Source of the DNA: Candidatus Aenigmatarchaeota archaeon | GTDB lineage: Archaea > Aenigmatarchaeota > Aenigmatarchaeia > GW2011-AR5 | Direction of reading: 5' to 3' | Assembly (NCBI GenBank): GCA_018304605.1 | Contig: JAGVVU010000018.1 | Span: forward strand, 6,278 to 38,807 | DNA length: 32,530 nt | Shown here: positions 1-29,558 of the stretch, in pieces | Position numbering within the stretch: position 1 is the stretch's first letter | Layout: every line of letters begins with the position of its first letter | Position numbers and translations under genes: made by a program | The notes under the pieces: generated by a model | Told to the model about the DNA's origin: nothing | The model's input: the letters and a program-made list of their open reading frames with translations, nothing else | Databases searched by the model: none

Positions 1-822
1 CTCGCCTGCCCGCTCAGCCACCTCGCCGGCGACTCTTAGGAGGTCCAGCGCCCGCCTTGCGTCGCCGTGCTCTTGTGCCGCCAACGCCGCGCATTTGCTG
101 AGCACCGAGTCGCTGACTACGCCCGGTCTGAAGCCTTCAGTGGCCCGTTCCATGAGTATATCCCTCAACTGCACCGCGTTGTAGGGCTTGAAAAGTATCT
201 CTTCCTCGGAAAGTGATGATTTCACCCGCAAGTCAAGGTTGTCCCTGAATGAGAGGTCGTTGGTGATGCCGATTATGGTTATGTGGCTTTTCTTGAGTTC
301 CTGGTTGATCCTTGTCAGGTTATAGAGAAAGTCATCGCCAACCTTCTTGACCAAAGCATCAATCTCGTCAAGTATTATTATGAACGTCGACTGCTTGCTG
401 TCTACGCGCTCGAAGAAGCGCCTGTATAGCACATCGGTCGGCAACCCAGTGTCTGGCACGCATTCCCCCATCTCCTTTAGCAGCTGCGCAAACAACCTGT
501 ACTCGGTATCCGCCACTTTCTTCATCTTGCAGTTGATGTAAACAGACCTCAGGCTCTTGCCTGATTGCTTGACAATTTCCTGCAGGTGCGCTATGAGGAA
601 TTTCGTGCATATGGTCTTTCCAGTTCCGCACGTCCCGTAAACGAATATGTTGTTAGGGTAGTAGCCCTTCAGGACCGGAGCCAGTATCGACCCGATTTGT
701 TGCAGTTCCGCGTCCCTATGTGATATCTTCTGGGGTATGAAAGAAGAAGAAAGTGCCTTCTTGTCGTTGAATATGTCTTCCTGTTCTATGTAACGAGCAA
801 AAATATTCTCAGTTGCTAACAC
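1..822 (-). CDS. cdc6: Orc1/Cdc6 replication initiator, N-terminal 274 aa (runs off left edge)
   Basis: This AAA+ origin-recognition and helicase-loading ATPase is open to the first base of the window, so it is absent from the ORF track. Visible motifs are Walker A GTCGTGKT (residues 63-70), Walker B IIILDEID (148-155), sensor 1 GITND (about 185-189) and sensor 2 HGDARRALDLLR (about 252-263). The C-terminal winged-helix DNA-binding domain lies outside the window. The start is GTG at 822, chosen because GGGGTGGTG lies just upstream on the minus strand and no ATG fits the conserved N-terminus. The gene reads away from a 375-base AT-rich intergenic region, the usual place for an archaeal origin. 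The family call is secure; the start codon is likely. Confidence 0.95.
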   Translation of the reverse strand, partial: MLATENIFARYIEQEDIFNDKKALSSSFIPQKISHRDAELQQIGSILAPVLKGYYPNNIFVYGTCGTGKTICTKFLIAHLQEIVKQSGKSLRSVYINCKMKKVADTEYRLFAQLLKEMGECVPDTGLPTDVLYRRFFERVDSKQSTFIIILDEIDALVKKVGDDFLYNLTRINQELKKSHITIIGITNDLSFRDNLDLRVKSSLSEEEILFKPYNAVQLRDILMERATEGFRPGVVSDSVLSKCAALAAQEHGDARRALDLLRVAGEVAERAGE

Positions 823-965: not shown

Positions 966-1020
966 TTTTCCATCTTGAACATATGTTTTCATTGTTCTAG
1001 TTTTCAAGACATTAAACACC

Positions 1021-1088
1021 CCTACATTTCTTATGGAAGTCTAAGTTGAGTTCTTTTCCTAGTATAAGACTGTTATAGGAAGTGTAGG
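1021..1088 (+). ncRNA. Long imperfect hairpin, candidate structured RNA
   Basis: CCTACATTTCTTATGG-AGTCT (1021-1042) can pair with AGACT-GTTATAGGAAGTGTAGG (1067-1088). Of 22 stem positions 21 pair in plus-strand RNA, four as G-U, with one A-G mismatch and a 24-nt loop. On the minus strand the G-U pairs become C-A mismatches, so the structure favours a plus-strand transcript. No protein is encoded here. The TATA-like box at 955-965 is at a suitable distance upstream. It could instead be a DNA cruciform or origin dyad. No RNA family was recognised. Confidence 0.3.
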
Positions 1089-10511: not shown

Positions 10512-10638
10512 GGTGCTTTTTCTTCGTTCCGTATCGGTTTCACGACTGTTTCACGAACGTTTCACTACACTACCTAATTGTCGAAACGGACTTAGTATTG
10601 TCATAAAGTGCATCGGAAGATGCATGGAGGTTGGTGAG

Positions 10639-24206: not shown

Positions 24207-24506
24207 ATGGGAAGAAAAAAAGGATTTGACGAGAAGAAAATCGGGAAGATCATATCCATTTTAGCTGCGAATCCCGACGGGATATGGATAAGGCAGATCG
24301 CCAAACAGACTGACTACTCGCCCCCTACTATTACCCACTATGTTGAGGGCATTTTAGCTCCGCTAGTCGAGGATACAAGCCTTGGTACGGGCAAGCCGCT
24401 GCTGCGTGTGGTACGCCTAAAGCCGTTTGTCATTGAGAAGCTCCAGGAAGGCAAGGACATCCGCCAGATTATGAAAATTTTGCGTCTCGTAGGCAAAATT
24501 CAATAG
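24207..24506 (+). CDS. Small winged-helix DNA-binding protein
   Basis: A 99-aa basic protein. The predicted winged helix is KIISILAANPDGIWIRQIAKQTDYSPPTITHYVEGILAPLVED (about 14-57), with QIAKQTDYSPPTITHYVE as helix-turn-helix, followed by a wing (TGKPLLRVVRLKP) and a C-terminal helix. No ligand domain is present. The gene faces the GTGAA array and the AAA+ ATPase downstream on the same strand, and its own start carries a TGTGAG motif. It is a candidate binder of these motifs; that is inference from position only. Confidence 0.8.
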   Translation: MGRKKGFDEKKIGKIISILAANPDGIWIRQIAKQTDYSPPTITHYVEGILAPLVEDTSLGTGKPLLRVVRLKPFVIEKLQEGKDIRQIMKILRLVGKIQ

Positions 24507-24670
24507 ATTTTAACTTCCTTCTAACTATTAATGGCTCTAAATTCTCTAAAAAAGTTAAATATTAGCTTTTAAGCCGTAAAAACCTGTTTTGAAAGTATTA
24601 ATTTTTGTATGTTATGTCTAACCTTGGCTCACGAATTCAATGCTTAAGCTCACCAAATTTTTATATGAAC

Positions 24671-25020
24671 GTGAAGGGTCAGTGAAATTCATGTGAAGTT
24701 CATCAAATTTTAGTGAATATATACGTGAATGCATGTGAATATGATGAAGACCTCTCACAAATTAAGAAAATTTTATAATCTAAAAATAATAAAACTCACA
24801 TTTTGGGGTCTACTATGACAAAATACAGGAAAACCCTTCACAAACCCTTCACAAACCCTTCATTTTAGGTAATGAAGTTCACGTAAAAATCAGTGAAATT
24901 CATATGAATTCATGGTGAAATAAAGAAAATTTAAGAAGTAATTGTGAATATAAGAGCAAATTTGGTGAAGAATTAAAATAAGACCGTGAAATTGCTTAAA
25001 TTTCAATGAAGGTCTGTGAA
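24671..25020. repeat. Array of 15 GTGAA/TTCAC repeats, partly helically phased
   Basis: Twelve GTGAA on plus start at 24671, 24682, 24693, 24713, 24725, 24735, 24893, 24915, 24944, 24965, 24986 and 25016; three on minus lie at 24837, 24848 and 24878. Intervals within clusters are 11, 11, 20, 12, 10 and later 22, 29, 21, 21, 30, mostly near multiples of the DNA turn. About one copy would be expected by chance. The block lies in the non-coding stretch 24507-25066, which is very AT-rich and holds no credible ORF. The last copy is about 20 bases before the TATA box of the AAA+ ATPase. This resembles an iteron or cooperative operator array. Confidence 0.8.
24834..24862 (+). repeat. 11-bp tandem repeat CCCTTCACAAA, 2.6 copies
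   Basis: CCCTTCACAAA occurs twice head-to-tail (24834-24844, 24845-24855) and a partial third CCCTTCA follows, with unit length equal to about one DNA turn. The core is the inverse GTGAA word. It lies in the middle of the array, where orientation switches. Confidence 0.8.
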
Positions 25021-25036
25021 CTTTACAATACAAAAA

Positions 25037-25046
25037 CTTATATACT
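25037..25046 (+). promoter_or_regulatory. TATA box of the AAA+ ATPase gene
   Basis: ACTTATATAC is centred about 26 bases before ATG 25067, with no ribosome-binding site between, so a leaderless start is likely. The GTGAA copy at 25016-25020 is just upstream, where a bound protein could help or block TBP/TFB. Confidence 0.6.
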
Positions 25047-25066: not shown

Positions 25067-26251
25067 ATGGAAGAAGAAATTGATGTAACTTTGGCAGAGG
25101 ATGAACAATCTAACCTACATGACTCTGATTCTGTTCAGGAAAAGCCGATTGATGACTCACATAAGAAAAAAGAGGAGCCGGTAGAAAAGCCAGAAGAAAT
25201 AGTTCAAAATACACCAAAAATGCTAAATAATCCTGATGAATGGTTTAAAGCTATTAAATGGTCTGGAAACCCATTTATTCTTAATATTATACCAGAACTG
25301 TTTGTAGGTTATCGAAATCAGTCTGAGGAGCTATTGAGGCTGGCAAGGGAAAAACACAAGATTATCATGCTTATAGGACCGACTGGTTCTGGCAAGACTA
25401 CATTGCTCGAATGGCTGTCAAAGAACATGGATGACAGGTTTGATTTTCTGTTTATAGGGAAACCACCACAAAAACCGGAGGAATTTGTCGATGTCTTTAA
25501 TGAAAGATATCCACGTATATTTCGGAAGCTTAAAAATATGTATCAGATACCGAATTTCCTCAACAAAAGGCTCCGTTCCAGGCATCTGATTGTGCTCTAT
25601 GACGAGGCCCATGAATCCAAGATGGATGTTCTTGAGTGGCTTCGTGTTCTGAGTGATCAGGTGGACAATATGTCCATAATCATTGCCGGACTTCCGGTCT
25701 TCGAGGAGCATCTTGCGAAACTGGAAACGCTTCGAAAGCGTGTCATGGGGAAAATCGAGCTTGTATCACTCACAAAAGAAGAAACTGAGAATCTGGTCAG
25801 GAAACGGATACAGAATGTCGGAGGCAGCGGCGAGGAATTCAAGGAGCTGATTGGCGCGATTTACAGCATGTCAGGCGGATTCCCGAGGGAAATAATAAAG
25901 GTGTGCAACGATGTCATCAACGAATCGATGAAGACAGGCAGACCTCTCACAAAAGAACTGATTCAGCACGAGTCAACAAAGGAAGAATTGAAAGTGTCGC
26001 TCCGCTTCCTCGAGGAACTCAGCCCCATGCAGCGGGAGATAATTGAGATGCTTGTCAATCCGATGACGCCGGGCCAGATAGCGAATAATCTCGACCTCGC
26101 AAAATACAAGTCACGCCAGCATGCTGTTCGTTCGATGAATAATATATTGAAGAGGCTGATGGATGACGGATTGGTTGGGAGAGCAAAGGAAGACCGTGCG
26201 TATTTGTACCAGCTTTCACCCAGCATACGAAGTATTGTCGTGAAAGCGTGA
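25067..26251 (+). CDS. AAA+ ATPase with C-terminal winged helix (ExeA/TnsC/Orc-like)
   Basis: A 394-aa protein. An acidic, low-complexity N-terminus (about 1-50) precedes an AAA_22-type domain: NPFILNIIPELFVGYRNQSEELL, Walker A GPTGSGKT (104-111), Walker B LIVLYDEAHE (174-183), sensor region MSIIIAGLPVFEEHL, then FPREIIKVCND near the lid. A winged helix follows at the C-terminus (SPMQREIIEMLVNPMTPGQIANNLDL...RLMDDGLVGRAKEDRAYLYQLSP). The layout resembles Orc1/Cdc6 and ExeA/TnsC DNA-loading ATPases, but it is clearly distinct from the cdc6 at the left edge. With the repeat array upstream it could be an initiator, segregation or transcription ATPase. ATG 25067 is chosen by the TATA spacing; the track start at 25016 is too early. 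Confidence 0.85.
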   Translation: MEEEIDVTLAEDEQSNLHDSDSVQEKPIDDSHKKKEEPVEKPEEIVQNTPKMLNNPDEWFKAIKWSGNPFILNIIPELFVGYRNQSEELLRLAREKHKIIMLIGPTGSGKTTLLEWLSKNMDDRFDFLFIGKPPQKPEEFVDVFNERYPRIFRKLKNMYQIPNFLNKRLRSRHLIVLYDEAHESKMDVLEWLRVLSDQVDNMSIIIAGLPVFEEHLAKLETLRKRVMGKIELVSLTKEETENLVRKRIQNVGGSGEEFKELIGAIYSMSGGFPREIIKVCNDVINESMKTGRPLTKELIQHESTKEELKVSLRFLEELSPMQREIIEMLVNPMTPGQIANNLDLAKYKSRQHAVRSMNNILKRLMDDGLVGRAKEDRAYLYQLSPSIRSIVVKA

Positions 26252-26283: not shown

Positions 26284-26359
26284 TGATTCCTCCGTGATTG
26301 GCGGAAATGCCGCAGAAATTATTTATACCTGCTCCAGTAAGTAATAGAAGGTGAAAAAA

Positions 26360-26614
26360 ATGCAGAGTAGAGGAAGAGATTTGCTTGGCAAGGTGATTGT
26401 GTCCGAAGAGACGGGCAGGAAATTCGGAGTTATCGGTGATATTAATTTCGTTTCTGAGAGCGGCGAATTGCTCAATTTGGTCCTGGTCGAGCCGACAAAA
26501 CATATCGGGGACCTGAGCCTGGAAAAAGACGAGAACAACCGGCTACTGATACCGTTTTCCTCAGTCAGGAGCGTCGGCGACTTCGTGATCATAAGCGAGA
26601 AGGAAATCGCATAG
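26360..26614 (+). CDS. PRC-barrel domain protein
   Basis: An 84-aa protein that is a single PRC barrel: LLGKVIVSEETGRKFGVIGDINFVSESGELLNLVLVEPT ... LLIPFSSVRSVGDFVIISE. Archaeal stand-alone PRC barrels are common; some act with FtsZ in cell division (CdpB-type) and others in RNA metabolism. Which applies here cannot be told. TTATTTATACC (26319-26329) is the TATA box, and GGTG six bases before ATG 26360 supports that start over the GTG at 26351. Near-identical 32-bp repeats lie on both sides. Confidence 0.85.
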   Translation: MQSRGRDLLGKVIVSEETGRKFGVIGDINFVSESGELLNLVLVEPTKHIGDLSLEKDENNRLLIPFSSVRSVGDFVIISEKEIA

Positions 26615-26810: not shown

Positions 26811-27209
26811 ATGGCAATTGACGATTCGTCCGGCGAGCTTCGCTCTCTTGCAAGGAAAATTGGCACAAGGGAATACGTGGTAAGCGTTGGCGGGGATACA
26901 GATTACGTAACTGTTTCTGATATAGGCATGCCGGGAATGAATGGCAGACCGCTATCTTCGGATGAATTATACTCTGTTGACAGGGTAACGTACAGAGGAG
27001 AAGTGCGCGAAGCCCAAAGGCATGAGAACGGTGTCGCCATTCATACGCCTGACGGAGTCCTTGTTTTGCCTTTTTGCGGGATGGATGACGTGCATGACTA
27101 TACGCATTTGATGCACTGCCTGGATTCCGGCACGCGCCCAGCGCCAGAATCGATGATAGATCTGATAAACAGGGAAGATGTTGAAAAATATCTGGAAGCT
27201 AGTCGCTGA
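26811..27209 (+). CDS. Unknown 132-aa protein
   Basis: A soluble acidic protein with several short strands: [55 protein letters not shown]. These suggest a small beta barrel, loosely like the preceding PRC barrel. The C-terminus is helical ([19 protein letters not shown]). No family recognised. The stop overlaps the convergent radA stop by 11 bases. No Shine-Dalgarno precedes the ATG. Confidence 0.7.
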
Positions 27210-28227
27210 TTCCGCTTTCCGTGAGCGTGAACACTGCTTCCCCTTCTGGCATGTTTGGGCTGTCTATCAGCCTTGCTATTCTAGTATTCGCTTTGCTTTT
27301 CCGAAGGTACAATCTAAATGTTGACATGTGTCCTACGATATTCCCGCCGACATGCGTAGTTGGGTCGCCGAACATCATATCGGGGCGAGCCATGACCTGA
27401 TTTGTCAGGTATATTGCGACATTGTAAGTATCAGCTAATTTTTGCAGTGCGTGCATATGCCTGTTCAGCTTCTGTTGCCTCGGCGCGAGCTCGCCTCTCC
27501 CCGAGTAGTCGGAACGAAAATGGCTCATAAGTGAATCTACAATGATAAGCTTCACATTCTGCTCCTTGACAAGCTCTTTCGCTTTTTCTGCCAGAACAAT
27601 TTGGTGATCACTATTATAGGCCTTCGCTATGAATATGTTTTTCAATACTTTTTTCGGGTCCAGACCTCTTGCCGCAGCCAATTGTATTATTCTCTCAGGC
27701 CGGAATGTGCTCTCCGTATCGATGAAGATGCACCTTCCATTCAACCCCCCTTCGCCTTTTGGCAATTGCACATTTACTGCTAAAGAGAATCCAATCTGGC
27801 TCTTTCCACTTCCAAACATCCCATAGGCTTCTGTTATCGCCTGCGTCTCAACACCACCACCGATAAGGGCATCGAGGTTTTTTGACCCTGTCGTTATCCG
27901 TCCTACTTCCTTCCGTCTCTCCTGCAAATCAGCAGCTGTCTTGAATCCCATGTCAAGCATGCTTCGTGCTGACTGTATTATTTTTTCCGCGGTCCCGTCG
28001 CTTATACCGCATGCCGCGCTTATCTCGCCGGCAGACGCGGCTGCTACAGAGATGAGCTCCGTGTAGCCTGCCTCCTTGAGCTTCTGCGCACCCTTCGGCC
28101 CGATGCCCGGCAGGTCCTCAAGCGTCATCTCGCTAGGGTCCTTCTTCACTACAGGCTCTTGAGGCTCAGCGTCGCCCTGAAGCCCTTCCATTTCTTCTTC
28201 TGTTGTTTTCTTTTTCTTGAATGCCAT
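27199..28227 (-). CDS. radA: DNA repair and recombination protein RadA
   Basis: The archaeal RecA/Rad51 recombinase forms filaments on ssDNA and exchanges strands. The 342-aa protein has a charged N-terminus, a helix-hairpin-helix region ([20 protein letters not shown], about 35-55), Walker [10 protein letters not shown] (about 135-143), Walker [10 protein letters not shown], and loop regions with [22 protein letters not shown]. Start ATG 28227 ([11 protein letters not shown]) is preferred to the track start nine bases earlier. It follows the small gene at 28237 after nine bases, so they are probably cotranscribed. Confidence 0.97.
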
Positions 28228-28236
28228 GATTATCAA

Positions 28237-28540: not shown

Positions 28541-29527
28541 TTATTCACTCTCACACAACATCGTTTCAATTTCCTGCTTCACGTCTACAGGCTTCACGTC
28601 GCTCGCTATGAACTCAAGCCGGTCGAACAACTGGTTCCGTCTCGCCCGCCCTTCGAAGACGAACTCCTTGCCGAGAGGAACCAACGAAAGCACGACGTCC
28701 AGCTTCTTTTTCTTGTCGAACAGCTTTTTTGCTTCTTTCGTCGTCATCCCGAGGAGCTTCTCCGCTTGCTCGTTGAAAAACACTATCCTTATGCTCTCCG
28801 TGCCGTCATCCGCTATGCCTGATACTATAAGGCCATAGTCAGGATTCTCTATTATTCCATGGTCAGGACAGATGAAGTCTTCGTTTTCATCTGGCTTTAT
28901 CCTGCTTCTGCATTGGTTGCACACCTCATAGAAGACATTTGATTCAAAAATCTGTATAAGTGGCGCACGAATTTCCTTGTACCCGCCTTCAGTCAGTTCC
29001 CGGATTAGTGTCCGTTCTGCGGCGCGCCTTGACTGTTTTATTGTCGCTATTGTTTCGTCGCTTTTTGCAAGCGACCCGTATCTCCCTATTCTTATTTCAG
29101 GATTGCCGAGGTTATCCTCTTTGACGTAGCCTTTCACCCTGATGGTGTCACTGGCCTCAATTCCTTCCAGCGACTTGATTTCATCATTCCACAGGGAAAG
29201 CCTTACCGATCCGGTCTCGTCCGCAATTGTCACGTTTGTCACCTTTCCACTACCCCTTTCAGTCGAAAATTCCCTTATTGGCGAGAGTCTTGTTATTTTT
29301 CCGACGACATCAACGTTCTGCATCCCTGGAATGACGTGCGCTATGTCGAGGCGCTCCTGTTTTACGACAGAGATACCCAGCTCCTTGGCGACAATGTACG
29401 CCGCCCCTTCTTCGGATATCAAATCAGACAATTCAGCGCGCTTCTCTTCGATCTTATCCATTACTTCCCTTTCATCAAGCCCGCTTTCAGAAGAAATCTT
29501 TTTTAGCAGTTCATTCAGCATGCGCAT
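28541..29527 (-). CDS. RPA-like single-stranded DNA-binding protein
   Basis: A 328-aa protein. A helical N-terminus (MRMLNELLKKISSESGLDEREVMDKI) precedes an OB fold with TNVTIADETGSVRLSLWNDEI (about 100-125), a zinc finger (CNQCRSRIKPDENEDFICPDHG, about 205-226) and a C-terminal OB-like segment (DVVLSLVPLGKEFVFEGRARRN). Such RPA/RfA proteins protect ssDNA in replication and repair. ATG 29527 is chosen over the TTG at 29539. CCTTTAAACATT is about 21 bases upstream, overlapping the sequence just after the histone gene. Confidence 0.9.
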   Translation of the reverse strand: MRMLNELLKKISSESGLDEREVMDKIEEKRAELSDLISEEGAAYIVAKELGISVVKQERLDIAHVIPGMQNVDVVGKITRLSPIREFSTERGSGKVTNVTIADETGSVRLSLWNDEIKSLEGIEASDTIRVKGYVKEDNLGNPEIRIGRYGSLAKSDETIATIKQSRRAAERTLIRELTEGGYKEIRAPLIQIFESNVFYEVCNQCRSRIKPDENEDFICPDHGIIENPDYGLIVSGIADDGTESIRIVFFNEQAEKLLGMTTKEAKKLFDKKKKLDVVLSLVPLGKEFVFEGRARRNQLFDRLEFIASDVKPVDVKQEIETMLCESE

Positions 29528-29558
29528 ACTACTACGCAAAAATGTTTAAAGGAAAATC

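Follow-up and report, generated by a model that had tools for sequence, protein, structure and literature searches.

The window, that is, the whole stretch of DNA that was analysed (32,530 nucleotides), comes from a DPANN archaeon, as judged from the closest relatives that have names: archaeon GW2011_AR5 and Candidatus Aenigmatarchaeota UBA10154. The relatives compared are, as far as they are named, metagenome assemblies, and the comparison is one of sequence data only. The features discussed below, in window coordinates, are these:

1 to 774, minus strand: canonical Orc1/Cdc6 gene (TIGR02928; G000:C60:5861-7051), truncated by the left window edge
1011 to 1077, minus strand: probable canonical origin elements upstream of orc1/cdc6, with the same elements in relatives
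1017 to 1038, minus strand: ORB-like element TTCCATAAGAAATGTAGGGGTG, within the probable orc1 origin
1063 to 1077, minus strand: palindrome TATAACAGTCTTATA, within the probable orc1 origin
24207 to 24506, plus strand: F2, a 99-aa winged-helix protein, a syntenic neighbour that is dispensable for the array
24671 to 24739, plus strand: left block of six GTGAA sites, 10-20 bp apart, kept in genus alignment A3
24740 to 24836, no strand: central gap, AT-rich, with CTCACA elements and a conserved ACTCACATTT-N7-TACTATGACAAAA, from the genus alignment
24831 to 24882, minus strand: central block of minus-oriented sites including the exact 11-bp tandem AAACCCTTCAC, from word positions and the tandem repeat
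24893 to 25020, plus strand: right block of six GTGAA sites, 1-3 helical turns apart, reaching the promoter edge, from word positions
25037 to 25042, plus strand: probable TATA box CTTATA, 30 bases before the ATPase ATG
25067 to 26251, plus strand: 394-aa AAA+ ATPase, probably the protein that binds the array; winged helix at its C-terminus
26351 to 26614, plus strand: PRC-barrel protein, often the downstream neighbour of the ATPase
27199 to 28236, minus strand: RadA recombinase, a conserved neighbour
28541 to 29539, minus strand: replication protein A (RPA), a conserved neighbour

On general knowledge and by inference, we take the ATPase promoter to be leaderless, the single GTGAA word to be a half-site and the protein assembly on such sites to be a stack.

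The array contains 15 exact GTGAA or TTCAC words between 24671 and 25020, the number originally predicted; shuffles of the same region yield 1.6 per 400 bp, where about one had been expected. The words run plus, minus, plus as described from the letters, with six plus-oriented (24671-24735), three minus-oriented (24837, 24848 and 24878) and again six plus-oriented sites (24893-25016). The predicted spacings of 10-12 and 20-22 bp are present, but the pattern is slightly more varied, with steps of 29-30 bp (three turns) as well. The exact 11-bp tandem in the centre is AAACCCTTCAC, at 24831-24862 in 2.9 copies. The region is AT-rich, as claimed (GC 0.29-0.31 versus 0.42-0.48 in the surroundings), and its flanking genes were correctly named: a 99-aa winged-helix protein lies upstream, and the ATPase combines an AAA_22 domain with a C-terminal winged helix. 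The non-coding nature of the array likewise holds, the ATPase starting downstream of it at ATG 25067. The mechanical start at GTG 25016, which would make part of the array coding, was rejected, since in the close relative G003 this ATG is not preceded by an open frame. A chance cluster or an AT-rich artefact is ruled out by the shuffles, by genome scans and by conservation. Nor does a structured RNA account for the region, Rfam having given one chance-level match only (21.6 bits versus a gathering score of 70).

Sites from relatives fall on a helical lattice, as the original prediction had proposed for the window. Same-strand spacings peak at 11, 22, 31-33, 42, 52 and 62-63 bp, and the best-fitting period is 10.4 bp, with a vector strength of 0.72 over 1,918 pairs; these pairs, coming from related genomes, are not independent, but the lattice is nevertheless seen across families with 35-45% ATPase identity. 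The phase is mostly gone at distances of 100-400 bp (vector strength 0.14-0.22), indicating that each block is phased internally. Between opposite strands the favoured layouts are TTCACGTGAA (104 cases) and GTGAAnTTCAC (57).

Comparison of orthologous ATPase loci, proposed as a check on the array, reveals GTGAA sites upstream of the gene in all 52 loci read, down to 35% identity of the ATPase protein, although some loci are reduced to promoter sites. Most loci carry 11-42 sites in the last kilobase versus 1-3 expected, and arrays of 20-42 sites extend 500-800 bp upstream of the ATPase. Families f8 and f13 (read by eye) and genome G051 have few sites, all promoter-proximal; given these cases, a large array is not universally needed. 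In G037 and G049, three sites precede the TATA box and two lie between TATA and ATG. Once the ATPase start codon is re-placed, the arrays of G033 and G046 are complete and extend into the LigT gene. In family f9 the array overlaps LigT in this way: GTGAA coincides there with Val-Lys codons and gives the protein the N-terminus DHVKVNVKVTQDHVK, so that the DNA sites seem to dictate the protein sequence. In the genus alignment, 88% of site bases are invariant versus 37% outside the sites (p=5e-16).

A genomic background rich in equally dense GTGAA clusters had been named as a ground for refutation, and nothing comparable exists in the genomes scanned. The next-densest 400-bp cluster holds 7 sites versus 18 for the array in G006, 6 versus 15 in G050 and 7 versus 16 in contig C2 of G003, the scan having covered G006 (minus a 72-kb masked part) and G050 end to end and one long G003 contig. 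A mobile element or plasmid module was rejected, since in no plasmid record was 80% or more of the query covered at a single place, and the synteny is vertical; the only viral match to the query is short and partial. Smaller groups of sites do occur. A phased GTGAA triplet that may be coding, being in or near a short ORF, is found at 10537-10565 of the window, 14 kb left of the array, with a counterpart at a matching position in a relative (G003:C2:137533) and one on another contig of the window's own genome (G000:C59:3938). Family f13 has, beyond the ATPase on its downstream side, another small GTGAA cluster, which lies close to a 325-aa gene and towards the relocated F2 (L173 13296-13325 in G037; 13434 of the synteny locus in G043).

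The gene order around the array is kept across families, running from LigT and OB-fold genes through F2, array, ATPase, PRC-barrel and RadA to RPA, and this synteny of the ATPase locus is vertical. The F6 gene, DnaG-like as judged from its sequence, is also near the array locus.

By sequence, the AAA domain of the ATPase is closest to ExeA/PEP-CTERM ATPases (TIGR03015) and to MuB-like transposition proteins (PHROG 296). Its predicted structure (pLDDT 81.8) has as best full-length fold matches A. pernix ORC2 and Orc1/Cdc6 (E 1e-13, TM ~0.5), a loose fit that we would explain by a different domain orientation, while the AAA part by itself resembles the TnsC (7plh) and MuB (8xvb) filaments. TnsC and MuB form filaments on DNA. 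Unlike the MuB, TnsC and ExeA proteins, the ATPase has no transposase or secretion partner, is a conserved syntenic core gene and has at its C-terminus a conserved winged helix that goes with one particular array; no linked transposase was found among the identified neighbours in the window. With the Orc1/Cdc6 family it shares, in the model, the AAA+ plus C-terminal winged-helix fold, and like orc1 with its ORBs it is an archaeal chromosomal gene with repeats beside it. However, a TIGR02928 search of its own genome matches the two orc1 loci only and leaves the ATPase unmatched, and its array consists of GTGAA half-sites every 10.4 bp, whereas ORBs are long and have a G-string. Profile comparison with orc1 is weak (P=0.0025) and confined to the AAA part. 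Two helices (137-147 and 158-169) lie between strands 2 and 3 of the model, where Orc1/Cdc6 initiators have the initiator-specific helix, to which they may or may not correspond. By these sequence criteria the ATPase is not a canonical Orc1/Cdc6 member. Its most conserved segment is the recognition helix, 346-361 (mean identity 0.88 versus 0.80 for Walker A and 0.64 for the whole AAA domain), as expected if it reads an invariant motif. Assignment to a defence system was rejected, the PADLOC matches being weak P-loop ones and Csa3 on the C-terminal part.

Two winged-helix proteins flank the array, and F2 adjoins it in most genomes. F2 could thus be the array-binding protein, with the ATPase as its regulated target. 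Among 74 genomes of the phylum with completeness of at least 85%, the ATPase is present in 55 and absent from all 11 genomes of f24, three of f25 and two of f20. The 16 ATPase-free genomes contain only four stray phased triplets, of which none could be established as an array, even though 14 of these genomes encode F2 homologues. In five f9 genomes, by contrast, array and ATPase occur together with no convincing F2. The array therefore follows the ATPase, which very probably binds it, via its own winged helix; this double dissociation rules out F2 as array binder, and we regard that reading as very improbable. The flanking winged-helix gene of the original prediction is thus not needed. F2 may instead own a different motif: CTCACA is the top upstream 6-mer in families with F2, and stands outside the top motifs in f9, which is without F2. 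It is strongly enriched between F2 and the array (24633-24810 of the window), and upstream regions hold 47 copies versus 1.9 expected in family f1 and 35 versus 2.1 in the other families. CTCACA is a candidate for F2's own binding site; a tie between the two looked for in ATPase-free genomes was not convincing.

Of 49 promoters, about 30 have a site located after the TATA box and before the ATG. Sites in this position imply that the ATPase regulates its own gene, and autoregulation appears well supported by where the sites fall.

The neighbourhood of orc1 is built differently. Upstream of this gene, G003, G006, G050 and G061 have ORB-like elements that include a G-string, together with a palindrome of the TATAACAnnnTTATA type, and G043 has a similar, less exact pair; the ORB-like element and the TATAACAGTCTTATA-type palindrome apparently constitute a conserved oriC signature of the Aenigmatarchaeota. 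The ORB elements adjoin canonical orc1, and the ATPase gene is adjoined by the GTGAA array instead. In 22 genomes a single contig carries both array and orc1, which are 1.9-58 kb apart there (median 16 kb). The linkage fails in f8 (G032 and G056) and in G027, where ATPase and orc1 are on different contigs and hence at least 73 kb apart; elsewhere it may be merely a relic of an old replication-gene cluster. In G061 a second GTGAA triplet, next to orc1, turned out to lie in coding sequence. The window's own assembly, with 4% contamination, has two near-identical orc1/cdc6 loci (contigs C39 and C60), probably from two strains mixed in the bin. Families f24 and f25 are without the ATPase and without a high-scoring Orc1/Cdc6 type, having a shorter, lower-scoring Orc1/Cdc6 or none detected, a pattern that suggests a swap of origin systems.

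The original prediction had offered a second origin with a non-Cdc6 initiator as one reading. Taken further, it would have the ATPase melt the DNA at the array and load MCM there. Its Orc1/Cdc6-like fold and winged helix, the layout of an initiator beside repeats and the replication genes in the neighbourhood all speak for this, and there is a precedent in WhiP, thought to act as initiator at Sulfolobus oriC3 (PMC4010727), although WhiP is Cdt1-like. As a parallel in layout, iteron plasmid origins have helically phased direct repeats beside an initiator gene, and their cooperativity requires helical phase (PMC4980987); iterons, however, measure 17-22 bp, and the Rep WH1-WH2 proteins that bind them have no AAA+ domain. 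Against an origin at the array stands the canonical one, the ORB origin being found ~19-25 kb away in G003, G006 and G050, while canonical Orc1/Cdc6 coexists with the ATPase in nearly all ATPase genomes, with an ORB origin where read. The ATPase-free f20 genome G061, moreover, retains an intact ORB origin. In the three genomes scanned, the region upstream of orc1 belongs to the most AT-rich 1.5% of 500-bp bins (percentiles 1.1-1.4), whereas the AT minima of the array are at percentiles 26, 16 and 3.5, so that a search for a DNA unwinding element by AT minima revealed no exceptional one there. GC and AT skew, raw or gene-strand corrected, give weak, contradictory minima in G006 and G050 and do not single out the array, although the third-position GC skew of G050 is compatible with 665 kb. 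With an ORB origin of its own, including an AT-rich element, already present ahead of orc1/cdc6, it is improbable that the array starts replication independently, and we consider the second-origin reading unlikely.

Two alternatives come close to the favoured reading, namely plain autoregulation and a role as centromere; an independent origin is less likely. Were the array only the operator of the ATPase, extra sites would titrate the protein or steepen repression; the promoter sites by themselves would fit this, overlapping the promoter in most genomes and being all that f8, f13 and G051 keep, and the array is always found next to this one gene. Yet the length of the larger arrays, the structured central gap, the spread into adjoining coding sequence and the usual origin linkage exceed what an operator needs, and we hold pure autoregulation to be not very likely. 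Alternatively, the ATPase and array could form an origin-proximal segregation anchor comparable to parC/ParR or SegB sites. Plasmid R1 parC consists of two sets of five repeats (PMC4949242), and the array shares with it two blocks of 11-bp-phased repeats upstream of an ATPase gene, in a likely autoregulatory position; SegB sites are located upstream of segA (PMC5120986), a similar layout in another archaeon; and origin proximity is as for parS. A strong Soj-type ParA, moreover, is found in only one of 33 genomes, G032, an f8 genome with a reduced array (L224 4642-5397 on G032:C1; PF13614, E 4e-55; no ParB was seen beside it). On the other side, MinD/SegA-like ATPases are present in all 33, and neither ParM nor ParA is encoded beside the array as a partner: actin-like ParM and ParR are absent among its neighbours (LigT, OB-fold, PRC-barrel, RadA and RPA), and the cassette has no ParA-type ATPase, its own being of the AAA_22 class. 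The ATPase, an AAA+ protein, is not a known segregation motor, and unlike ParMRC the module is chromosomal and class-wide, its ATPase having its own DNA-binding domain. SegA, in contrast, is ParA-type, and the two Sulfolobus systems, SegAB with its sites ahead of the cassette and WhiP-oriC3 with sites beside the initiator gene, have few palindromic sites and no long phased array. A centromere-like partition site seems to us rather unlikely.

We therefore favour, as the best of these readings and on balance probably the correct one, an autoregulated, origin-linked module of cis-array and AAA+ ATPase, in which a stack of the ATPase would serve segregation or origin control. What stands of the original interpretation is the conserved phased array tied to an Orc/ExeA-like ATPase; its second origin is weakened, and its partition site or regulatory device may still hold. 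In the mechanism we propose, the ATPase would bind GTGAA half-sites by its own winged helix, and since the sites repeat every 10.4 bp, its protomers would be aligned on one DNA face. Aligned protomers may then join via their AAA+ domains, of the Orc/MuB/TnsC fold type, into a cooperative, ATP-controlled nucleoprotein stack, formed on the chromosome's one such site. Protein on the sites beside the TATA box, and on those downstream of it, would shut down or modulate the ATPase promoter. Situated between a few and some tens of kb away from the ORB/orc1 origin, the large array would mark the origin-proximal part of the chromosome, and this mark may serve segregation or origin control rather than an independent start, which is the least certain step.

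To our knowledge, chromosome marking, replication and segregation in DPANN are almost unknown, and most DPANN archaea are unculturable. The array/ATPase system was not found described in the literature on Aenigmatarchaeota and DPANN replication origins within our incomplete library. It is a module built on a core gene, its cis-site can be recognised from sequence, and it is conserved across most of the class, with a natural contrast of presence and absence and a predicted binding lattice; a single protein and a single DNA fragment would suffice to test it in vitro. By joining a MuB/ExeA-type AAA+ domain to a winged helix and to a chromosomal array of its own, it forms a bridge between initiators and transposition-type DNA-coating ATPases. 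We suggest, more tentatively than the module itself, that an Orc/MuB-clade ATPase with its own chromosomal array might be a device of a new class, serving segregation or origin licensing in archaea: a stack that would assemble itself on DNA, mark the origin region and control its own supply.
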